A stretch of 43,457 nucleotides of DNA from NCBI GenBank assembly GCA_017617495.1, contig JAFZWD010000036.1:1-43457 (forward strand), given 5' to 3'. Below the pieces are notes generated by a model. That model made no database searches, was not told the DNA's origin, and was given only the letters and a program-made list of their open reading frames with translations. How positions within the stretch are numbered: the stretch's first letter is position 1; the number at the start of each line of letters is the position of its first letter. This DNA is from Bacteroidales bacterium (lineage in GTDB: Bacteria; Bacteroidota; Bacteroidia; Bacteroidales; UBA932). Shown piece by piece: positions 5,557 to 32,779 of the stretch. The position numbers and the translations under genes were made by a program.

Positions 5557-7083
5557 TTACTCGGAAACAGGCCGAACGTTTCCACCTACGTAACGATCGT
5601 AGTTGCCCCGGTATACACCATCTATATTGAAGTATAAGTCCAATGCTTTTCTGGGGTCATCCGTACGGACGGATGAAGACCAATAATAGCCATAGGTCCC
5701 CTTATTCCTGACTGTACCAATTTTACAAAAGCCTGCCGCTGGCAGAAATATGCAATTGCCATTTGTTGCCCTGACAAATCTACCGTTGATCCCTGTGCCA
5801 ATGTAGTTCGTCACCCATTCCCATGTGCAGTTGGTCCTCAATTCTGTCCATTCGTCATCTGTAGGAATACGCCATTTACCCTTGAGAATCTTCCTGGCAG
5901 CATCATCCTCATAATCGTAATCCTTGAACTCTGTTTTGTTGTCCACAATACCCCAAGAACTATCGTTATTATACCTGATCAATGTTGATTCCGAACCCTC
6001 ACATAATTCATAAGATGGCCAATAATAAAGGGATTGAGATTGTATTTCTCCCCAAGCGTAAAAATCGCCACTCTGTTCGGAAGAACTCACTAGCCCCGTT
6101 TCACTGAGATTGCAAGTTGCCCAAAAAACACTCAACCCTAAATCAACCGATCCAATGGGGCAAGGTCGTGTGACAAAAACAGAACAAGAAGCGTATGTGC
6201 CACTTCCATCATTTGCAATAGCTATAATTGTAGTTTGCCCTATTGCCTTTGCAGTAACCACACCTCTCTGATCTACGGAAGCAATATTGTCATCCAACGA
6301 GGACCATGTGCACGATTTATCATTAGCATTTTCCGGCAAAATCGAAGTTACGGTTAATGCAGCGTTGTTTCCACATGCAAGCGGGAGTATAACCCTATCA
6401 AGAGAAATACTTGTGACATACTGTGCAACCGTAATTGCACATGTAGCCGTTTCACTCTGATCTTTTGCAGTTACTGAAATCGTTGCCTTTCCATTGCCGA
6501 CTGCCGTAACTACTCCATGCTCATCTACTGTAGCGACACTGATTTTGTTGGAAGACCATTCCACACTCTTGTCTGTTGCGTTAATGGGGAGGACGGTGGC
6601 ATTCAAAATCAATGTGTTACCAATGGTATGGAAGGTATGTTCACTCTTGTCTAAAGACACGCTATTTACATGATAAAAAATCGTGGAGAAAGTTTTTATA
6701 GCGCCACACTTTACTGCCATTCCCTTTTGGACATAGGCCCTGTAATAATATGTAGTATTTGGTAATAAGCCCGAAGCAGTAACCGTAAGCCTATTATTGC
6801 CGTCCAATTCAGTTGCAACCACCTTCACAGCATCTTCAAAAGTTTGTCCTTTGTCATACATAATACCCACTTCGGCATCTCCCAGTTCAAACGGAAGATT
6901 TACGTAGCCAGTAAGCCTAGCTGAAGAATCAGTTATATCAAAAGCATCGCCTGTGATTATAACTTCATCCTTATTATTCTGTTTCTCTCCGTTGTCGTTC
7001 TTGGCTTCTTGTTTCTCACAGGAAGCTAATAGAGGTACTATTAAAACAAAGAATATGGATGCAAACCTCTTGACTTGATTCAT
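5557..7083 (-). CDS. Lipoprotein with two Big_2 Ig-like domains and a C-terminal FSMPD-like domain
   Basis: A 508-residue surface or periplasmic lipoprotein. The signal peptide ends in LASC (Cys22) and is followed by a charged, low-complexity linker. The order is then an FN3-like domain (about 40-130), two Big_2 domains (about 135-215 and 220-300, each with the SVSLD/SISLD start and the VDxxGVVTA strand), and a C-terminal domain. That domain begins VDLGLSVFWATCN and contains WRIPTDDEW, FLPAAGF and YWSSS, as in the Fibrobacter-type major paralogous domain common in Bacteroidales surface proteins. The role is probably binding or adhesion; no enzyme motif is seen. Only one base separates it from the 110-residue gene upstream. 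Confidence 0.9.
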   Translation of the reverse strand: MNQVKRFASIFFVLIVPLLASCEKQEAKNDNGEKQNNKDEVIITGDAFDITDSSARLTGYVNLPFELGDAEVGIMYDKGQTFEDAVKVVATELDGNNRLTVTASGLLPNTTYYYRAYVQKGMAVKCGAIKTFSTIFYHVNSVSLDKSEHTFHTIGNTLILNATVLPINATDKSVEWSSNKISVATVDEHGVVTAVGNGKATISVTAKDQSETATCAITVAQYVTSISLDRVILPLACGNNAALTVTSILPENANDKSCTWSSLDDNIASVDQRGVVTAKAIGQTTIIAIANDGSGTYASCSVFVTRPCPIGSVDLGLSVFWATCNLSETGLVSSSEQSGDFYAWGEIQSQSLYYWPSYELCEGSESTLIRYNNDSSWGIVDNKTEFKDYDYEDDAARKILKGKWRIPTDDEWTELRTNCTWEWVTNYIGTGINGRFVRATNGNCIFLPAAGFCKIGTVRNKGTYGYYWSSSVRTDDPRKALDLYFNIDGVYRGNYDRYVGGNVRPVSE

Positions 7084-7562: not shown

Positions 7563-8597
7563 TCACCTTGCAGCCTTCTTCTTTTCGTTGGCGAAGTACA
7601 AATACCACTTCACAAAGTTGTCTCGATGCTCGACAGAAAGCCCACGGTGCACGCGTAGGTTGTCTTTGAGGTGTCCGAAGAATGACTCGAGTCCATTTGT
7701 ATTGTGCGGGACAAGAGGATTGTCAAGGAACTTGAACATGTCCGGCAATGCCCTGTGGATATGAATGTATGCCCTTCTGATATTATCGTGAGTATATGTC
7801 AACTCCCCGGTTTCCTTGTTGACGGACTTCTCCTTAATGAACTCTTCATATTCATCATACCACTTTGCCAGTTCTTTCATCCAGTATAACTTATCGTTCT
7901 TGGTCTCAATCTTACATATCATACACACTAGACGCCTCAGAGTGATGCCGGCAGCCGTACGAGGATGCTGAGTGAGCCACGCCAGGCACTCTCGTTCAAT
8001 ATGTACGACACATCGCTGCCTGGTGGTATGTGGATAAGCGTACTTTATAGCCCTGACAATAGGTTCTGCGCCGTCTGTGGTAAAGCTGGAAATGCTGAGT
8101 CGCAGCCTCTTGAATACCTGGAGATCCTTGATGATCTCATACTCATCCTCGCCTGCCGCAAAGCGATAATACAGCGTCGACTTGCTATCGTTGTCCCGAT
8201 ATACAATCAGGCAATGATCTCTGTCGAACCACGTCCCATCAATCAGCAGATGGACGCCCTTCCTGCGTTGCACTACCCACTCTGGCGCCTTGTCCAGGTA
8301 CTCATCGTACCATCGCCTGAGCTGCCTCTCGCTGTAACCGCTCTCGCGCGATATGTCTGTTATTGTCTGCTTGCCTAGAACCCACTTGCGGAACCATACG
8401 AAGCGGTTTGTGGTGCTGACATCCCTTCTGCGTGGCGTATAGCTTGTTTTACAGTTGGTGCATATATAACGCTGATGGCCGCATTGTACACCCCACCTTA
8501 TGACACTGATAGAGCCGCATTTGGGACAACGTTTTCGCTGTTTATTCTTACCCATATCACTACTTTTATGAAACGCTTTCCATAAAAGTAGCTGCAA
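7563..8597 (-). CDS. IS256-superfamily (IS1249-like) transposase
   Basis: A 344-residue transposase. An N-terminal zinc ribbon (Cys24, Cys27, Cys46, Cys49) precedes a helix-turn-helix-like region (SRESGYSERQLRRW). The DDE triad is readable as Asp120 (LLIDGTW), Asp175 (TTDGAEP) and Glu304 (NGLESFFGHLK). The C-x2-H motif at Cys196/His199, between the second Asp and the Glu, is typical of IS256 and Mutator-type enzymes. A shorter start at Met15 (8555) is possible and would put the zinc ribbon close to the N-terminus. The gene looks intact. Subgroup assignment is from memory; the superfamily is fairly sure. Confidence 0.88.
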   Translation of the reverse strand: MQLLLWKAFHKSSDMGKNKQRKRCPKCGSISVIRWGVQCGHQRYICTNCKTSYTPRRRDVSTTNRFVWFRKWVLGKQTITDISRESGYSERQLRRWYDEYLDKAPEWVVQRRKGVHLLIDGTWFDRDHCLIVYRDNDSKSTLYYRFAAGEDEYEIIKDLQVFKRLRLSISSFTTDGAEPIVRAIKYAYPHTTRQRCVVHIERECLAWLTQHPRTAAGITLRRLVCMICKIETKNDKLYWMKELAKWYDEYEEFIKEKSVNKETGELTYTHDNIRRAYIHIHRALPDMFKFLDNPLVPHNTNGLESFFGHLKDNLRVHRGLSVEHRDNFVKWYLYFANEKKKAAR

Positions 8598-24689: not shown

Positions 24690-26786
24690 TTACCTCAATC
24701 CGTCGAGCTCGGCGATAAAGACGGGAGCGTAGGCGGAGACGGAGGCGACGAAGGCATTGCGACCCTTGCCGGCGATTCTCTTGGACGAAGCTTTTACGAC
24801 TCCGTAGACCGAGATGCGCGGATAGACGGTGCGCTTGGTCTTGACGACATCGCGCACCTTGAGTTCCAGAATGCCCTCGTTCTCACCTTCGGGAATCACC
24901 ACCGCCTCGGCCTTGACGAAGCCCTCGCTGCACTTCATCATCAGCGTGACGGGCGAATTGAAGCCCGGATCACGCTCAAGGACGACCTTGACAGGGAAGG
25001 TGCCGCCGCGCTCGAGATGCAGCGGACCGCGGCCCTCGCGCACCACCTTTATGCGGAACGGGGTCTTCTCCCCTACCTCGACGCGGAATTCCTCCATCGG
25101 CATAAGGTGGGTATAGTAGAAGGCCTGCATCATGGATTCGGCAGGCACGGCGTCGCGGGTGACGGAAGTGCCGTTCATCTCGGCAGAGCCGGAAACGCGC
25201 GGCATCAGGGTGCCCTTGGCCGCCCCTTCGGGTGCGGTAATCGAAACGAGTGTCTTTTTCTTGTACTGTTCGATGCGGTTGCCGGCGACCTTGAAGCCGT
25301 GCGGCAGGCCCGCTATGTCGATGTCGATCGCCCCGCGGAAGTTCTGCTTGGGGTGCATCTGCACGGTAAACACCGCCGAGCCCTGTTCCGGCAGCGAAAT
25401 GGTGGCGGGTTCGATGAACAGCGAAAAGTCGGGTTGCGCCGGAGCCCAGCTGAAGCGGTAGGCGTAGTCCTGCCCGCCGTGGGCCTGGGCCTCAACGAGG
25501 CGCACGTAATACCGGCCCGGCTGCAGTTTCATGGTGAGCTCGGGGTCGGCGAAATGAGTCATCATGCACTCGTCGGGATCCTCGGTATCGTCCACGTCCT
25601 TAACCTTGTTCATGTAGCTGTCGAACAGGCTCATCTGCACGTCGGTGGGCGCGCCCAGGCGACGGGCCATCACCTCCAGGTGAACGGGCTTTTTATTCGG
25701 GACGTCGATCACGTACCAGTGCTGTTCCAGAGGCTTGGAGAAGACGGTCTCGCACACCTCGCCCGAAGCGAGCTCCCAGGCGGAGCCCATATCGGTATTG
25801 GGCGCGAGCTTTTTGGTGCTGAGCTGGTCGCGCGGGTCGGAATAGAACCACATCCGGTTGGAATGCAGGCCTCCCGGACCCTGGGCCACAACGGCAAGGC
25901 GTCCTTCTTTGGAGCACTTGAGCTTGAGTTTTTCGGATTTCAGATTATAGCCCGTAAGCTTGAGCTCATTCTTTTTGCCCGCAGGGCCTCCGAGGGGCGA
26001 AACCGATGTGATGAACGGCAGCTCGCCCACATCGATGCGGTACACGAAGTCCTCGCGTCCGCGATAGAGCGCGTCGTTGATTTCCACCTCGTAGTCGCCG
26101 CTTTCCGGCACCTTGAAGAAGAGCACCGGATCCACATTCCAGCGGTAGTCGTCGTTATAGGCGATTTCCCTGCCGTCGGGGCCGTAGAGACGGATAATCG
26201 GCTGGAACCAGCCGGGAACGGCATCTGCCATATAGGGCACGAAGACGCGTCCCTTTACCTGCAGCACCAGCTGACGGCCCTTCACCGCCCGGAAGCGGAA
26301 ACGGTCCACGTCGCTGCGCATTATCTGCCCGTTGAAAGTTACGGGAAGGCTCGCCGATGCGCCCGAAAGCTTTGCTTTGGCATCTTCGAGCACGTCGGGC
26401 AGCTCGCCCACCTCGAAGTAGAGGCGGTTGCTCATGCCGTTGGGCAGCACCAGGCGCAGGTCCCTCATGCCGAGGGCGGCATCCTTGCTGACGGTGAGGC
26501 GGAATTTCACCCTGTCGGCCAGCTGGAGGTTGTCCTCCTCGCCGATATCCTTCTTTCTGCGGCCCTTGCGCTTGGGCTGTTCGGAAGCCGCCAGAATCTC
26601 CCCGCTCACGCCCTTGCCGCTGATGACCACGGCCCTGGCCTTGGAGATATTCTGCCCGCCGACTGTTATCTCGACGGTGGTGCCGCGCTGGGCGCCGGTA
26701 GGATATATATAACCTATATTGCCCTTCTGGGCCGATGCGGCGAGGCATATCGCCAGGGCCGCAAGAACTGTAAGCATCCTTTTCAT
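24690..26786 (-). CDS. Exported protein with IPT/PPC-like domains (planctomycete type)
   Basis: A 698-residue exported protein without an enzyme motif. A signal peptide (to about residue 19, ASAQ) is followed by an IPT-like beta domain (GAQRGTTVEITVGGQNIS). A basic insert, KRKGRRKKD, comes next, then PPC-like beta domains with VDRFRFRAVKGRQLVL and YNDDYRWNVDP, a second IPT-like unit (SVSPLGGPAGKKNELKLTGYNL) and a further PPC-like unit (about 440-520). Long proteins of this kind accompany DUF1501 and DUF1549/DUF1553 genes in Planctomycetes and Verrucomicrobia. Its start overlaps the DUF1501 stop (ATGA). It is probably a carbohydrate- or protein-binding partner outside the cytoplasm; that role is inferred. 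Confidence 0.82.
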   Translation of the reverse strand: MKRMLTVLAALAICLAASAQKGNIGYIYPTGAQRGTTVEITVGGQNISKARAVVISGKGVSGEILAASEQPKRKGRRKKDIGEEDNLQLADRVKFRLTVSKDAALGMRDLRLVLPNGMSNRLYFEVGELPDVLEDAKAKLSGASASLPVTFNGQIMRSDVDRFRFRAVKGRQLVLQVKGRVFVPYMADAVPGWFQPIIRLYGPDGREIAYNDDYRWNVDPVLFFKVPESGDYEVEINDALYRGREDFVYRIDVGELPFITSVSPLGGPAGKKNELKLTGYNLKSEKLKLKCSKEGRLAVVAQGPGGLHSNRMWFYSDPRDQLSTKKLAPNTDMGSAWELASGEVCETVFSKPLEQHWYVIDVPNKKPVHLEVMARRLGAPTDVQMSLFDSYMNKVKDVDDTEDPDECMMTHFADPELTMKLQPGRYYVRLVEAQAHGGQDYAYRFSWAPAQPDFSLFIEPATISLPEQGSAVFTVQMHPKQNFRGAIDIDIAGLPHGFKVAGNRIEQYKKKTLVSITAPEGAAKGTLMPRVSGSAEMNGTSVTRDAVPAESMMQAFYYTHLMPMEEFRVEVGEKTPFRIKVVREGRGPLHLERGGTFPVKVVLERDPGFNSPVTLMMKCSEGFVKAEAVVIPEGENEGILELKVRDVVKTKRTVYPRISVYGVVKASSKRIAGKGRNAFVASVSAYAPVFIAELDGLR

Positions 26787-28057
26787 CACAGGCCCTCCAT
26801 AATTTCGGTAAGCATTCCGTTGCTCTGGCCCTCCCTGCCGTAGGACGGCAGCATGGGGATTTCGCCCAGCACGGGGTGCGTCACGGTACCGAGCGGGTCG
26901 ATGCCCATCAGCTTGTATACGCTGGCCCAGAGGTCCGCGGGATAAATCTTGCGGTCGATGACCTTCTCGCCCTTGGCGTCGGTGGCTCCCACTACAACTC
27001 CCCCCTTGAAGCCGCCGCCGGCGACTATGTAGGAGAAAGCGGCCCCGTAGTGGCCCCTGCCGCCGTTCCATGGCGGGCCGAAGCCGATTACCGGCGTCCT
27101 GCCGAATTCGCCGCCGACCACAATTATAGTGCTGTCCAGAAGGCCTCTCGCCTCGAGGTCGAGGATGAGCGAAGACACGCCCGCGTCAAGCTCGTCGAGC
27201 CGCTGGTCCATACGCTTGAAATGTTCCTTGTGGGTATCCCAGCCGCGGAAGCGCACCATCGTCACCAGCACCCCCTGCTCCACCAGTTTACGCGCGGCGA
27301 GGCAGGACTGCCCGAAGTTGTTGCGCCCGTAGGCGTTGCGCACCGAGTCGGGCTCCGCGTTCAGGTCGAAGCACCCCCGGATATCGCCCAGCATCAGCTC
27401 CCATCCCTGGCTGCGGTATTTCGCAGCCTTGAGCACCTCCTCCGTCTGCTGAACGGGTTTGCCCAGGGCGGAAAGCTCCCCAAGGAGCGCACGGCGCGAC
27501 TCCATGAGCGCGTCGGACATGTTGTGGTCCACTATTCCGCTGACGTCGAAGAACTTGTCGTTGGGCTTGCCGCCAGTGTCGTAGGGCTTGAACATTACGT
27601 TCAGGAAGCCCGCCTCGTTGAAGCGGGTGGACGCCTCGGTTATGCAGATGTAGGGGAAAAGCGGATTGTCGTACTCCGCCTGCTTCTTGTAGGCAATCAT
27701 CGCCCCGTAGGACGGATAGACTATGTCCTGGCCGGTCATGTCGCCGGTGAGCATGCGGTAGTGCCCGGTCTCGTGGGCGTTGGTGCCGTCGCACATGCCG
27801 CGCAGCACCGCCAGACGGTCGGCTATGGCGGCCAGCTTCACCAGCCTTTCGCCGAAGAGCACTCCCGGTATCTTGGTTTCAATAGGATTCTTGTATTTGC
27901 CCGTTACGCTGTAACCCGCATCGGGCTTGGGATCGAAGGTGTCGGTCTGCGAGGAACCGCCGTCGAGGTAGATGTATACCACGGCCTTAGCCTTCTGCGC
28001 CTGCATTCCCACCATAGGAAGCAGAGCTGCCAACAGTATGGTTATCAAGCGTTTCAT
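26786..28057 (-). CDS. DUF1501 family exported protein (alkaline phosphatase-like fold)
   Basis: A 423-residue exported protein. The signal peptide ends near GMQAQ and is Sec-type; the twin-arginine signal usual for DUF1501 proteins in Planctomycetes is missing. DUF1501 landmarks are YIYLDGGSSQTDTFDPKP near the N-terminus, ETGHYRMLTGD, RGWDTHKEHF, VVGGEFGRTP, GRGHYGAAFS and AGGGFKGG. The family belongs to the sulfatase/alkaline phosphatase superfamily, and the Asp and His residues in these blocks are likely metal ligands, but no activity has been established. It is flanked by DUF1549/DUF1553 (1-bp gap) and the PPC protein (4-bp overlap). Confidence 0.92.
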   Translation of the reverse strand: MKRLITILLAALLPMVGMQAQKAKAVVYIYLDGGSSQTDTFDPKPDAGYSVTGKYKNPIETKIPGVLFGERLVKLAAIADRLAVLRGMCDGTNAHETGHYRMLTGDMTGQDIVYPSYGAMIAYKKQAEYDNPLFPYICITEASTRFNEAGFLNVMFKPYDTGGKPNDKFFDVSGIVDHNMSDALMESRRALLGELSALGKPVQQTEEVLKAAKYRSQGWELMLGDIRGCFDLNAEPDSVRNAYGRNNFGQSCLAARKLVEQGVLVTMVRFRGWDTHKEHFKRMDQRLDELDAGVSSLILDLEARGLLDSTIIVVGGEFGRTPVIGFGPPWNGGRGHYGAAFSYIVAGGGFKGGVVVGATDAKGEKVIDRKIYPADLWASVYKLMGIDPLGTVTHPVLGEIPMLPSYGREGQSNGMLTEIMEGL

Positions 28058-28058
28058 A

Positions 28059-29552
28059 TCAGTTCAGGAATAAGAATTCGTCCGTATTCAAAAGCGCCCA
28101 TACCAGCGATTCGGCGGCGGTGCGGAAGCCCACCCCGGCCGGTCTTGCGCCTTCGTACCAGCGCGTTACCGCCTGGATTTCTTCGGGAGAAGCGTGCCTG
28201 GCGAGCACGCGCATGTAGACGTCGTCGGTCATGTCCTTGATGCTGCCGCCCCAGAGCCGGGATTTGAGCCAGGGGCTCTTGCGCAACTTCTCCTGGATGT
28301 CGGTAGAGTTGAGCAGATAGAGTATCTGTTTGGAATTCACCGAGTTGTCGCGTCCGCTCTCGAGGGGAACGTCGCGCGACGGGCGTCCGAAAATGTCCAG
28401 CTGCGGAGTGGTAATGGTGCCGTCGCAGACCTCGACCGAACGGGTGCCGGCCGGGAAGTTGGTGAAGGGTTCCGGGGCCCGGCTGGAGTATTTGTCGGGC
28501 ACGCCCGTTATATCGCAGATGCCGTCGCAAATCTGCTCCGCGGTAAGGCGGCTCTGAATGTAATGCGCAAAGAGGCCATCGTCGCAGGGCTGGGTGTAGA
28601 GCGTGCTGCGCGCGAAAGCGTCCGAAAGGAGTATCTCCCTTGCCAGCGCCCTCACGTCGAAGCCGGAGGCTATAAACCTGTCGGTCAGATAGTTAAGAAG
28701 CTCCGGATTGGAGGGCGCCGCCCCGCTGCCGAGGTCGTCCACCGGATGAATAATGCCCCTTCCCATCAGCCAGAACCAGAGCCTGTTGGCGAACGCCAGG
28801 GCGAAGTCGCGGTTGTCCGCCGAAGCCAGCCAGTCGATGAAGGGCTTGCGGAAGTCCGTGCCCTCCTCCAGCGTTACTGATTTGCCGCCGAGCCTGAGCG
28901 GATGCTCGGGCGGGAGGATGTCCACGTCCAGGCAGAGAATCTCTTCCTTCCACTCCTTTGTGCTCTTGAATTTAACCTGGCTGAAGAACGGCAGCCAGTC
29001 GTCCGGGACCTCCCTCAGGCCGAGGAAGAGCAGCGCAGCGTCCGAGGCGAACTTGCGGGGACTGCGGTCGGAACCTGCCCTGTAGAAGTTGGTCTGCGGG
29101 CAGCGGAAATTGCTGCCCGTGCCGGACAGAAGTTCCCTCACGAACCTGTCGTAGGGCGTGTTGGCGCGGAATTCCTCGAACAGCCATTTGTTGAATGCCT
29201 GCACGGCGTTCGGCCACATGCAGCTGGGGAACTCGGACTTGATGCGCAGCAGGTCGCCCCACTTGAGCATGAGCTTGCCGGCAAAGCCGTCGCTGGCGAG
29301 CAGGCTGTCCACCAGGGCCGTTCGGTCGGGATTCTTGAGGAAAGCCCTGGTCTGCGCCTCCGTTGGAATGCGGTCGGTGACCACCAGGAAGTAGCGCCGC
29401 ACCAGCAGGGCCGCATCGGCTTCGGGGGATGCCTTGATCCCCTGACGGTCGAGCTCCGATGCAATTAGCCTGTCGATCTCGCCGGCAAAGGCCACCGGGC
29501 CCGCCAGCAGGAGCAGCACAGGCAGAAGAAAACGATTAAGTTTCAGTGTCAT
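28059..29552 (-). CDS. DUF1549/DUF1553 domain protein, exported
   Basis: A 497-residue exported protein with a signal peptide to about residue 23 (VAFAG). DUF1549 covers about residues 30-210 (LLVRRYFLVVTDRIPTEAQ, LVDSLLASDGFAGKLMLKWG). DUF1553 covers about 230-480 (FALAFANRLWFWLMGRGIIHP, NPELLNYLTDRFIASGFDV, RLTAEQICDGICDITG). The planctomycete cytochrome-c-like domain that often precedes them is absent, and both domains are shortened. The function is unknown in all lineages. First of three adjacent genes with DUF1501 and PPC; the permease and M13 peptidase lie directly upstream on the same strand. Confidence 0.9.
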   Translation of the reverse strand: MTLKLNRFLLPVLLLLAGPVAFAGEIDRLIASELDRQGIKASPEADAALLVRRYFLVVTDRIPTEAQTRAFLKNPDRTALVDSLLASDGFAGKLMLKWGDLLRIKSEFPSCMWPNAVQAFNKWLFEEFRANTPYDRFVRELLSGTGSNFRCPQTNFYRAGSDRSPRKFASDAALLFLGLREVPDDWLPFFSQVKFKSTKEWKEEILCLDVDILPPEHPLRLGGKSVTLEEGTDFRKPFIDWLASADNRDFALAFANRLWFWLMGRGIIHPVDDLGSGAAPSNPELLNYLTDRFIASGFDVRALAREILLSDAFARSTLYTQPCDDGLFAHYIQSRLTAEQICDGICDITGVPDKYSSRAPEPFTNFPAGTRSVEVCDGTITTPQLDIFGRPSRDVPLESGRDNSVNSKQILYLLNSTDIQEKLRKSPWLKSRLWGGSIKDMTDDVYMRVLARHASPEEIQAVTRWYEGARPAGVGFRTAAESLVWALLNTDEFLFLN

Positions 29553-29562
29553 TGGTTGATGT

Positions 29563-29585
29563 AATAACAGTCTGTAGACGTTATT
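29563..29585. promoter_or_regulatory. Inverted repeat before the DUF1549/DUF1553 gene
   Basis: AATAACAGTC and GACGTTATT pair around a 4-nt loop (TGTA), with one bulged base. It sits in the 50-bp gap between the permease and the DUF1549/DUF1553 gene and could be an operator or an attenuator. No clear -7 box is seen nearby. Confidence 0.35.
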
Positions 29586-29602
29586 ATCAGTGCAGGGTTT
29601 AA

Positions 29603-30766
29603 CTATTTTACGCGGACGGTTTCCGCCGGGTCCACCCTGGAGATAAAGAGCGAAGGAATCAGCAGCAGGAGCATTATGGCGGCGTATGCCGCGATGTCCA
29701 CTGCGAGAATCTGGAGCGGAGCCACGTGCACAGGCACGAAGCTCACGAAGTAGTTGGCCGGATTGAGCCGGATAAAGTGCGTGGTTCCCTGCACCAGGCA
29801 GAAGAGCAGGGCGGCTGCGTTGCCGGCGAGCAGGCCCTTAAGGACCGTGCCCGAAGCCACGCGGAGGAACACTCCCGCAATGCTGCGGTCGGTCATGCCC
29901 ACGGCCTTGAGCGTGCCGATTGTCGAAATGTTGCGGAAGAGCATTATGAGCAGGCCGGAAATCATGTTGAAACCTGCCACCAGAATCATCAGGAGCAGGA
30001 TTGCAAGGACATTGAAGTCGATGAGTTCCAGCCAGTCGAAAAGTGCGGAGTAGCTGTCGGCAGCCGATTTGGCGAGCACGTGGGGCTCGTTTTCGCCGGT
30101 GCCCATGGAGGCGATGATGCCGATTTCGGAGGCCTTACGCCTCTGGGCGTCCCGGCCCCGAAAACGGGCATCGAGCCGGATTTCAAGAGCGCTCACCTGG
30201 TTGGGTTCCCAGCCGTTGACGCGCTGGATATCGGGCAGCGAGGCGTAAACGATGAGGTTCTCGTCGGCCTCCACAAGCGGGTCGTGAATCTCGCGGACGG
30301 TGAACTTGCGCACCTTGAGGCGCTCGCCCACGAAGTAGGTTGTCATCGCGTCGCCGGGCTCCAGGCCCATGCGCTGCGAGAGCCTGCGGGGGATGGAGAC
30401 CGAGAGCGCGGCGGTATCGGCCGAAGGCATCGCCTTGATGAGTACTCCCTGGATGGAAGAGCCGTTGCGCACGATGCCCGCCCGGTAGGCTACCGGAATT
30501 ATCTCGCTCACTCCCCTCACCTTTTCCACTCCGGGGAGCCACGAAGGATCCGAAAGGATGGGGTCGTCCGGGCTGAAATAGTTGACGCGGGTGCCTGTGA
30601 TGGCAACGTCCCCGCCCAGTGCCGACAGCCCGTCGCGAATCTGCTCTCGGAAGCCCCCCGAAATGGCAAGTGAAATTATAATAACAAAGAAAGAGACGGC
30701 TATCGCTACGACAGCCATTCTCCCTCTGAATTTTATTTTAGAGGCTATGAAGCGCCCTGCGTCCAT
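29603..30766 (-). CDS. FtsX/LolE-type ABC transporter permease
   Basis: A 387-residue inner-membrane permease with the same four-segment plan as the gene at 1114-2349, but clearly a different protein. Membrane segments lie at about residues 17-38, 248-278, 305-328 and 352-376, with the periplasmic domain (about 40-240) between the first two. The segment LFRNISTIGTLKAVGMTDR is the conserved coupling region that contacts the ATPase. The likely role is lipoprotein release together with the other permease and a LolD-like ATPase encoded elsewhere. Its start directly follows the M13 peptidase stop with no gap. Confidence 0.88.
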   Translation of the reverse strand: MDAGRFIASKIKFRGRMAVVAIAVSFFVIIISLAISGGFREQIRDGLSALGGDVAITGTRVNYFSPDDPILSDPSWLPGVEKVRGVSEIIPVAYRAGIVRNGSSIQGVLIKAMPSADTAALSVSIPRRLSQRMGLEPGDAMTTYFVGERLKVRKFTVREIHDPLVEADENLIVYASLPDIQRVNGWEPNQVSALEIRLDARFRGRDAQRRKASEIGIIASMGTGENEPHVLAKSAADSYSALFDWLELIDFNVLAILLLMILVAGFNMISGLLIMLFRNISTIGTLKAVGMTDRSIAGVFLRVASGTVLKGLLAGNAAALLFCLVQGTTHFIRLNPANYFVSFVPVHVAPLQILAVDIAAYAAIMLLLLIPSLFISRVDPAETVRVK

Positions 30767-32779
30767 TTACCAGATGTGTACGCGCTCGGCCTCGGGCCTC
30801 CACATCGGGTCGCCCTCCTTGATGCCGAATGCATCGAAGAAGGATGCGAAGTTGCGAACCGACACGTTCACGCGGTTGACCGCGAGCGAGTGGGGATCGA
30901 TGTTGGTAAGGCGAGCCTTCTCCTCGTCGGTGATGTTCTGGGCCCACACCGTGGCGTAGCCGATATAGAAACGCTGAGCGGGGGTGAAGCCGTCGATGAG
31001 GCCGGGGTTCTTGCCCTTCATGGCGTTCTCCATAGCAGTCCAGGCGATGCTGAGTCCGCCGTGGTCGCCTATGTTCTCGCCGAGGGTGAAGTGGCCGTTG
31101 GCATGCACGCCGGGAAGAATCTCGACTGCGTCGAACTGCGCTGCAAGCACTTCGGCCTTCTCGCGGAACTTGGCGTCGTCCTCGTCGGTCCACCAGTTGA
31201 CCATGTTGCCGTTCTTGTCGAAGAGGCGTCCCTGGTCGTCGAAGCCGTGGCTCATTTCGTGTCCGATGACAACTCCGATTGCGCCGTAGTTCACGGGATC
31301 GTCGGCGTCAGGATTGAAGAAAGGAGGCTGCAGGATGGCTGCAGGGAAGCAAATCTCGTTGGTGGTGGGGTTGTAGTAGGCGTTTACCGTCTGCGGAGTC
31401 ATGCCCCATTCGGTCTTGTCCGTAGGCTTGCCGAGCTTTGAAAGATTGTCGGCGATATACCAGCGGCTGGCTGCACGGTGGTTCTCGTAGTAGCTCTTTT
31501 CGGGATCCACCTCGAGGGTGCTGTAGTCCTTCCACTTGTCGGGATAGCCGATCTTTACGGTAAAGTTGTCGAGCTTCTCGTGGGCCTTGACCTTGGTGCT
31601 GTCGCCCATCCAGTCGAGCTCGTCGATATGCTGTCCGAGTGCGGCCTGAAGGTTCTTCACGAGAGCGAGCATCTTCTTCTTGGAGCTGGCGGGGAAGTAC
31701 TTCTTGACGTACATCTGGCCGACGGCTTCGCCAAGCACTCCGTTAGGCACTGCCATTGCCCTCTTCCAGCGGGGCTTGTGCTCCTGGATGCCGGAAAGCT
31801 GGCGGGAGTAGAACTCGAAGTGCGCGGCATAGAAATCGTCGCTCAGGGCGCCGCATCCGCCGCTCACAAGATGTGCAAGCACATAATCCTTGAGGATGTC
31901 GAGGTCGGTCTTTGCGACATAGTCGCTGAGGGCCTGGAAGAACGAAGGCTCACAAACGATTATCTTCTCCTGCTCGGGGATGCCGCCGGTCTCGAAGAAT
32001 GCGGCGAAGTCGAATCCCGGGAAAGCCTCGAAAATCTGCGAGGAGGACATGGGGTTGTAGAGCTTGATGTAGTCGCGCTCCTGCTCCCTGGTCCAGGAAT
32101 TCAGGGCGAGGTAATCCTCAACCGCCACGGTGTTGTCCGCCACCTTTGCAGCATTCTCTACGCCCGCAAGTTCGAGCACCTTTACGAGGAATGCGCGGTA
32201 ACCCTCCTTGAGGGCCTTGTTCTCGGGCTTCACATAGTAGTCGCGGTCGCCGATTCCCAGGCCGCCCTGTCCCATATAGAGAACCTGGCTGTCGCTGTCC
32301 ATGAGGTCGGCCTCCACGAACACTCCGAAGAGGCTGCCTTCGCCCTCGAGATGCATCTTGGCGAGCTGTACGGCGAATTCCTTCTTGTCCGCAATTGCCT
32401 GCACCTCGGCGATATACTTCTGCAGAGGAGCTGCGCCTTCGGCGTTAAGACGCACGGAGTCGAGGCCCTGCTTGTACAGGTCCACTATCTTCTGGTCCAC
32501 GCTGCCCTTTTTGGTCTTCATGGTGGCCATCGAGGCGAAGAGGTCGTTCAGGCGCTCCACGTTGTTCTCGCGCAGCTGGTCGAAAGTGCCGAAACGGGCA
32601 TATTCGGCTCCGAGGGGATGGTTTTTCTGCCATCCGGAAACGGCGTATTTATAAAAATCTTCTCCCGGAGAAACCTCGGTGTCGAGATTGGCGAGGTCGA
32701 TTGCGGGAACCTTTTCCTGCTTGGGCCCGCAGGATGCGAGCATCGCGAATGAAATCATAAACAACAATACCTTTTTCAT
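30767..32779 (-). CDS. pepO: M13 family zinc metallopeptidase, lipoprotein (PepO/neprilysin type)
   Basis: A 670-residue endopeptidase that cleaves oligopeptides outside the cytoplasm. The lipoprotein signal ends LASC (Cys17). The N-terminal helical M13 domain covers about residues 35-420 and the C-terminal catalytic domain the rest. The zinc site is HEMSH (His507, Glu508, His511), with the third ligand Glu568 in ENIGDHGG, and NAYYNP supplies the substrate-binding Asn. The length is normal for the family. It is the first gene of the minus-strand run that continues through the permease and the DUF1549/DUF1501/PPC genes. Confidence 0.95.
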   Translation of the reverse strand: MKKVLLFMISFAMLASCGPKQEKVPAIDLANLDTEVSPGEDFYKYAVSGWQKNHPLGAEYARFGTFDQLRENNVERLNDLFASMATMKTKKGSVDQKIVDLYKQGLDSVRLNAEGAAPLQKYIAEVQAIADKKEFAVQLAKMHLEGEGSLFGVFVEADLMDSDSQVLYMGQGGLGIGDRDYYVKPENKALKEGYRAFLVKVLELAGVENAAKVADNTVAVEDYLALNSWTREQERDYIKLYNPMSSSQIFEAFPGFDFAAFFETGGIPEQEKIIVCEPSFFQALSDYVAKTDLDILKDYVLAHLVSGGCGALSDDFYAAHFEFYSRQLSGIQEHKPRWKRAMAVPNGVLGEAVGQMYVKKYFPASSKKKMLALVKNLQAALGQHIDELDWMGDSTKVKAHEKLDNFTVKIGYPDKWKDYSTLEVDPEKSYYENHRAASRWYIADNLSKLGKPTDKTEWGMTPQTVNAYYNPTTNEICFPAAILQPPFFNPDADDPVNYGAIGVVIGHEMSHGFDDQGRLFDKNGNMVNWWTDEDDAKFREKAEVLAAQFDAVEILPGVHANGHFTLGENIGDHGGLSIAWTAMENAMKGKNPGLIDGFTPAQRFYIGYATVWAQNITDEEKARLTNIDPHSLAVNRVNVSVRNFASFFDAFGIKEGDPMWRPEAERVHIW

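Follow-up and report, generated by a model that had tools for sequence, protein, structure and literature searches.

A conserved PSD-DUF1501-PPC gene trio in a Bacteroidales genome as a possible exported two-subunit metalloenzyme module

We analysed a 43,457-nucleotide stretch of DNA, hereafter the window, from a Bacteroidales bacterium (assembly GCA_017617495.1, contig JAFZWD010000036.1, positions 1 to 43,457). It encodes, back to back on one strand, a protein with DUF1549 (PSCyt2) and DUF1553 (PSD1) domains, here called PSD, a DUF1501 protein and a PPC-domain protein. These genes belong together as one conserved unit; a fixed order and one in-frame fusion mark PSD and DUF1501 as natural partners, and the trio of the window is a new instance of the known DUF1501 module. 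We tentatively propose, with somewhat less than even confidence, that this trio could be an exported two-subunit metalloenzyme module lacking the usual nucleophile, in which PSD would complete the site and the chemistry would act on phosphate- or sulfate-like esters.

Results

The PSD, DUF1501 and PPC genes form a conserved unit

An earlier note, made from the sequence of the window alone, had described the three genes as lying back to back, and both the coordinates and the Pfam families agree with this description: a single base (28058) separates PSD from DUF1501, and DUF1501 overlaps the PPC gene by four bases (26786-26789). The PSD of the window matched PSD1/DUF1553 with E=8e-37 and PSCyt2/DUF1549 with E=3e-25 in Pfam, the DUF1501 protein matched DUF1501 with E=3e-81, and the PPC protein matched PPC with E=3e-6; homologues of the PPC protein additionally carry weak TIG-like segments. 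The length given for the PPC protein (Table 1) is counted from a homologue-supported ATG, the longest open reading frame (ORF) of the same frame beginning upstream at 27071. A Sec-like N-terminus, judged by eye, is present on all three proteins. The source metagenome-assembled genome (MAG), 1.51 Mb in size and 74% complete, contains a single PSD1 match and a single DUF1501 match.

A single search of public genomes, made with the DUF1501 of the window, returned 29 loci, to which the Bacteroidales loci L105 and L106 were added to give 31 (L104 is on the same contig as L007). PSD stands upstream of DUF1501 on the same strand in all 29 scan loci and in 31 of 31 with the two additions, and a PPC protein is encoded downstream of DUF1501 in 27 of the 29 and 29 of the 31. 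No PPC gene was found in L012, profile search included, and the sequence of L028 stops within DUF1501. A WD40-repeat gene is inserted between DUF1501 and PPC in L105 (8884-10125) and in the planctomycete locus L015 (3733-5157). Carriers of the trio include Bacteroidales, Planctomycetota, Verrucomicrobiota, Spirochaetota, Armatimonadota and others. Since the gene order is identical in loci of several phyla, the arrangement is not a matter of chance, and the view of the trio as a unit holds. Direct, though single, evidence that PSD and DUF1501 act together comes from L029, in which the two are fused in frame into a protein of 1040 amino acids with an Ala/Pro/Ser-rich linker; this natural fusion fixes the identity and the ratio of the partners.

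By score the DUF1501 of the window is of the trio type, with 664 bits against profile A1, which includes the window protein itself, versus at most 325 bits for other Bacteroidota DUF1501 proteins. Most of the relatives outside Bacteroidota come from Planctomycetota, Verrucomicrobiota and further phyla, consistent with the association with Planctomycetes and Verrucomicrobia noted earlier. The trio resembles the DUF1501 clusters of the Planctomycetes-Verrucomicrobia-Chlamydiae (PVC) bacteria, first described by Kamneva et al. 2012 and presented here after passages of PMC4452313 and PMC4960237, which likewise combine DUF1501 with a PSD1-type partner in an exported, operon-like arrangement; the planctomycete loci of our scan are orthologous trios. 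Unlike these clusters, the window copy resides in Bacteroidales, an order not known to have intracellular membranes, is single, and is without a twin-arginine (RR) signal.

DUF1501 appears distantly related to sulfatases and has a set of invariant residues

Judged by profile comparison, DUF1501 appears to be a distant relative of the sulfatases, in line with its earlier placement in the sulfatase/phosphatase superfamily. A DUF1501 profile of 29 rows, compared with the PDB, matched sulfatase 9bb9 (E=0.0098), with the GEFGR motif aligned to GDHGR of the sulfatase. For the sulfatase set, 29 ORFs of the family were taken, with one locus omitted, and the 17 that carry the motif were used. Against these 17 sulfatases a broad DUF1501 profile yielded P=2.9e-7 over 113 columns, compared with 0.30-0.72 for the controls (TatC, RpoB, permease, pepO, DUF1800 and PSD), and other runs with a narrow DUF1501 profile yielded 8.9e-7, 1.4e-4 and 2.5e-5. 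The C-terminal half of DUF1501 can be aligned with the PF00884 sulfatases of the alkaline phosphatase superfamily, from which it differs in having no C/S-x-P-S-R and in being nearly always accompanied by a partner gene. The PF00884 model gave no match to the window protein at E 0.01, DUF1501 being its sole Pfam family. No formylglycine motif (C/S-x-P/A-S/T-R) precedes the T-G turn of the window protein, which reads HETGHYRMLTG.

We aligned 88 DUF1501 proteins, comprising 31 of the trio type, 29 of other types (28 PSD-linked) and 28 linked to DUF1800. Gly33, His95, Asp274, His276, Phe318, Arg320, His336 and Gly347 are identical in 88 of 88; at position 317, 87 proteins carry Glu and the remaining one Asp. 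No Ser, Thr or Cys is invariant at any single position across the 88 proteins. Asp42, which never varies in the trio type, does not occur in the proteins linked to DUF1800, and only the trio type has His279. The spacing suggests that His95, nine residues before the Thr-Gly turn, may take the place of the nucleophile (formylglycine).

The missing sulfatase nucleophile motif of the window protein would also suit a non-catalytic envelope or surface structure, in which DUF1501 would be a dead sulfatase-like fold in a binding or scaffold complex with PSD and PPC, as would the presence of PPC, a beta-sandwich accessory domain. It has moreover been proposed (Kamneva et al. 2012, cited in passages of PMC4452313 and PMC4960237) that DUF1501 clusters are connected with the intracellular membranes that PVC bacteria possess. 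Yet the eight positions conserved in 88 of 88 proteins, which include two Gly, three His, Asp and Arg, resemble an active or metal site. The trio also extends beyond PVC bacteria to Spirochaetota, Armatimonadota, Bacteroidales and others. We therefore regard a purely structural role as unlikely.

PSD and DUF1800 are probably distant homologues

PSD homologues also accompany other DUF1501 types, at 28 of 29 loci (about one per genome, returned from 60 other matching genomes). In Bacteroidota, DUF1501 is found beside DUF1800 at 28 of 30 loci, these being 30 loci of 36 listed matches. As in the trio, a helical-type partner gene lies directly before DUF1501 in these pairs, but the partner belongs to another Pfam family and the DUF1501 protein is without the trio-type Asp42, Glu96 and His279.

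A broad PSD profile of 81 rows, reached by removing four of 85 rows (names beginning L183, L189, L172_pp and L029) so that fused rows were excluded, was collinear with DUF1800 (P=5.2e-6 over 184 columns), with six controls at 0.26-0.57. One PSD matches the DUF1800 hidden Markov model at 1.1e-5 in a small set. A sequence comparison of PSD with the PDB returned no significant relative (best E=0.33). These profile matches make PSD and DUF1800 probable distant homologues within one partner family. Going further, and a little more tentatively than for the trio itself, we suggest that PSD1/DUF1549 and DUF1800 proteins as one partner family might form, with DUF1501, a single and very widespread class of exported two-subunit sulfatase-related enzymes in which an invariant His replaces the Ser/Thr/formylglycine nucleophile, the Bacteroidales trio being their smallest version.

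In the literature collection searched, no paper names DUF1501 and DUF1553 together. The passages considered from PMC2754498, PMC4452313, PMC4960237, PMC5615132 and PMC5122149 give no tested function for DUF1501 or PSD1, and they mention neither a link between PSD and DUF1800 nor the set of invariant residues; the wider literature may hold these last two.

A possible mechanism and the points that weigh against it

In the proposed mechanism, the PSD subunit would bind DUF1501 after export and complete or gate a metal site made up of His95, Asp274, His276, Glu317, Arg320 and His336. The pair would then cleave or transfer a phosphate- or sulfate-like ester outside the cytoplasm, probably on a glycan substrate, by a chemistry that dispenses with the usual Ser, Thr or formylglycine nucleophile, and the PPC protein would hold the pair at its substrate or at the envelope. 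A glycan is put forward, on indirect grounds, because there are PSCyt proteins that carry carbohydrate-binding modules, according to passages of PMC5615132, and because DUF1800-DUF1501 gene pairs are found with bacterial chitin synthase genes, according to passages of PMC5122149.

Several observations weigh against this proposal. DUF1501 matches the sulfatases weakly and mainly in its C-terminal part, and each profile P-value applies to a single comparison. Nor are hydroxyl residues wholly missing, since 87 of the 88 proteins have either Thr (71) or Ser (16) at position 104. His95 reaches the nucleophile place by gap-free spacing only, whereas profile alignments put Thr97, which is not conserved, or a position near Asn93 there. 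For the partner family, a narrow PSD profile gave P = 0.62 or 0.0004 against DUF1800 depending on the hhalign mode; the L029 fusion is a single instance from one MAG, and the involvement of glycans is circumstantial.

The trio offers a small system: with a single copy in small Bacteroidales genomes, a natural fusion, a short list of conserved residues and the link to DUF1800-DUF1501 pairs, one purified complex could inform two protein families. Some planctomycetes have PSD1 proteins by the dozen, and a compact single copy in a few Bacteroidales could help to reveal the role of the widespread PSD-DUF1501 pair.

Heme motifs, export signals and a possible redox role

The main rival to the ester-enzyme proposal is a redox role, in which the pair would oxidise an extracytoplasmic substrate, relatives with a heme motif having an electron carrier built in and the compact form using a separate carrier or metal. 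The name of PSCyt2 marks it as a cytochrome-type domain, and Rhodopirellula baltica RB10051 (PSD1+PSC2) has been proposed to take part in redox reactions (passages of PMC2754498). The PSD of the window shares its PSCyt2 (DUF1549) and PSD1 (DUF1553) domains with the cytochrome-type PSCyt1/PSCyt2-PSD1 proteins of Planctomycetes and Verrucomicrobia. Those proteins, however, have N-terminal cytochrome domains and PSD1 scores of 287-360 bits, versus 105-177 for most compact PSDs, and no CxxCH is present in the window PSD.

The absence of the heme motif is the rule for this PSD subfamily: CxxCH occurs in one of 30 PSD rows, some of which are N-terminally trimmed, and on the stop-to-stop frames of 29 loci it occurs in L015 alone, as CAECH within DUF1549 at a gap of the other PSDs. 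The earlier description of the window trio as compact is accordingly correct as to the missing heme motif, but this is no special feature, since 29 of the 30 subfamily PSDs lack it. While CAECH in L015, a member of the same subfamily, and the His-rich conserved set, which could bind Cu or Fe, speak for a redox enzyme, the 29 PSDs without CxxCH and the kinship of DUF1501 with sulfatases, a hydrolase family, speak against it.

Export signals bear on the same alternative. Among 32 trio-type DUF1501 proteins, an RR N-terminus is found in 24, is missing in seven (the window, L003, L004, L005, L007, L011 and L106) and one is fused, this tally being a motif count and not a signal prediction. The RR signal, in 24 of 31 assessable members, is therefore common but not defining. 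The Sec-type signal that the earlier note had singled out is real in the window but not order-wide, as L006 and L105 are RR-type. The change to Sec suggests that DUF1501 can fold without wrapping around a cofactor in the cytoplasm, and the Sec-type export of seven of 31 assessable members speaks against cytoplasmic insertion of a cofactor. Taken together, we consider a redox role improbable, although worth keeping in view. For the metalloenzyme proposal, a metal site able to form outside the cytoplasm would fit the co-occurrence of RR and Sec signals in one orthologous group despite TatC. TatC is present in eight of nine carrier genomes, the window's own included. Loss of the Tat pathway as the reason for the Sec signal was ruled out, given TatC in the own genome and in seven of the eight other carriers. 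In the Verrucomicrobiales MAG with locus L008, the DUF1501 protein has an RR signal, yet TatC was not found.

The trio is scattered in Bacteroidales and falls in a deep, mainly Bacteroidota clade

PSD1 is present in one of 299 genomes of the family, namely the window's own. In the order, five of 393 genomes match the DUF1501 profile, four with the trio type (596-696 bits, the own genome included) and the fifth with weak matches only; the four belong to four different families. In a sample of the phylum, 61 of 395 genomes had DUF1501 profile matches: the own genome, 48 whose matches are strong and of other types (E<=4.2e-38, scores up to 325 bits) and 12 in which all matches are weak. Other DUF1501 types are thus common in Bacteroidota, and the trio type is scattered and, in the phylum sample, confined to Bacteroidales. 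Eight further carriers from Bacteroidota have a single PSD each (that of G305 being listed as two pieces). In one Pirellulaceae genome there are 27 PSD1 matches, and many of these are large proteins with high scores. The trio-type DUF1501 is absent from 72,556 plasmid records, in which five records match at 27-30% identity, and plasmid carriage of the trio was ruled out by this search.

Such rarity, in the family (1/299) as in the order (4/393), together with PVC and allied bacteria as the closest relatives outside Bacteroidota, speaks for a recent horizontal transfer of the trio from a planctomycete to this Bacteroidales lineage; a transfer had also been claimed in the earlier note. A tree of DUF1501 plus PSD (31 rows) argues otherwise. 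One side holds nine Bacteroidota rows and the Verrucomicrobiales MAG L008 (100/100), and the other holds 21 rows that belong to Planctomycetota, Armatimonadota and further phyla. The window lies five nested supported forks inside the Bacteroidota clade, nearest to UBA2861 (L003), then L029, then L004. The base composition of the trio is that of its neighbours, with a guanine-plus-cytosine (GC) content of 0.61-0.62 overall and 0.80-0.82 at third positions, inside the ranges of neighbouring genes (0.55-0.65 and 0.68-0.83). The identity between the window and L003 is alike in TatC (89%) and DUF1501 (86%). Because the copies from Bacteroidota group in a deep clade of their own, joined by a single Verrucomicrobiales MAG, a recent planctomycete donor is disfavoured and in our view very unlikely.

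Simple vertical inheritance within Bacteroidota was also ruled out, by the placement of L008 and by a conflict with RpoB. The RpoB tree, in which a same-genus genome stood in for the own genome, whose RpoB was not found in the 74% complete MAG, pairs the L005 and L006 genomes (100/100), whereas the trio data reject that clade in the approximately unbiased (AU) test (p=0.011). A Bacteroidota-only clade is rejected as well (AU p=0.0002), with L008 falling inside; both tested clades were chosen after inspection of the tree. L005 has a long branch, as does L008 in the DUF1501 tree. The position of L008 might reflect transfer or a misbinned contig. The patchy distribution, the differing surroundings and the conflict with the RpoB tree suggest an old entry of the trio, followed by later transfers or by many losses, and make transfer within Bacteroidales likely. 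The wide and vertical inheritance in Bacteroidales that the earlier note had named as a refutation of its transfer claim was thus not observed, the trio being rare and patchy there.

The upstream pepO and permease genes are bystanders

An M13 peptidase gene (pepO) and an FtsX/LolE-like permease gene indeed lie directly upstream of the trio on the same strand (Table 1). As all five genes of the window genome share one strand with gaps of 0-50 bases, pepO, permease, PSD, DUF1501 and PPC could be read as a single functional unit of five genes. Across the 31 loci, however, neither pepO nor the permease is beside the trio in any (flanks up to about 8 kb, many shorter). In 13 of 19 regions of about 4 kb from same-genus relatives, pepO adjoins the permease, and trio genes are found in none. 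Nine longer regions of 14-15 kb (L095-L103) likewise contain the permease in nine of nine and the trio in none; the neighbours of the permease there include ugp and cpbp in three, divIC in two and folP in one. The permease is general in the genus of the window, with a near full-length match of at least 41% identity in 29 of 31 genomes, the own genome included; the exceptions are G325, where a fragment lies at the edge of a contig, and G310, with a weak paralogue only. We conclude that pepO and the permease are bystander neighbours and that the trio is the added part of this neighbourhood; a five-gene unit has hardly any remaining likelihood.

Table 1 Features of the window discussed in the text.
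Feature	Position	Strand	Basis or remark
PSD gene (497 aa, predicted exported helical partner subunit)	28059..29552	minus	Pfam, own-genome match, place before DUF1501
DUF1549 domain of PSD	29064-29480	minus	Pfam
DUF1553 domain of PSD	28161-28850	minus	Pfam
DUF1501 gene (423 aa, exported; domain 26894-27991)	26786..28057	minus	Pfam, own-genome match, alignment A1
His95 codon of DUF1501	27773..27775	minus	88/88; nine residues before Thr-Gly turn
Asp274-Thr275-His276 codons of DUF1501	27230..27238	minus	Asp and His 88/88
Glu317-Phe318-Gly319-Arg320 codons of DUF1501 (GEFGR motif)	27098..27109	minus	aligned with sulfatase GDHGR
His336 codon of DUF1501	27050..27052	minus	88/88
PPC-domain protein gene (699 aa, exported; PPC 26079-26312)	24690..26789	minus	Pfam, place after DUF1501
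FtsX/LolE-like permease gene	29603-30766	minus	Pfam
M13 peptidase gene (pepO)	30767-32779	minus	Pfam

The surroundings of the trio differ among the window and six Bacteroidota loci, the sole overlap being one neighbour common to L005 and L007. A chorismatase-like gene adjoins the trio in L005 (5903-6991), L007 (4913-6073) and L106 (10168-11328), the call resting on FkbO/Hyg5 N-terminal and L-PSP matches in Pfam for L005 and L106 and on BLAST for L007. This family is present in five of 10 trio carriers versus two of 30 non-carriers (Fisher p=0.006, for hand-chosen genomes with kinship ignored), and it was not found in the own genome nor in the genomes of L003, L004, L029 and L008. Directly upstream of the trio in L006 (3990-5336) are genes for an ECF-type sigma factor, a small family-less protein and a weakly LTXXQ-like protein. 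The carrier genome G528 (locus L106) has 104 sulfatase-family matches, one of them near the trio on its contig, and the other carriers searched have 1-13.

Two further observations concern the window itself. A candidate hairpin (29553-29602; 70-base fold of -8.0 kcal/mol) follows the permease stop and precedes the PSD start and, by eye, is not evident before PSD in L003, L004 or L029. Between 5001 and 10000 the GC content drops from about 0.60 to 0.39-0.47, and the ORFs of this part resemble, by eye, genes for a transposase (7563-8597) and for an Ig-like lipoprotein (5557-7083).

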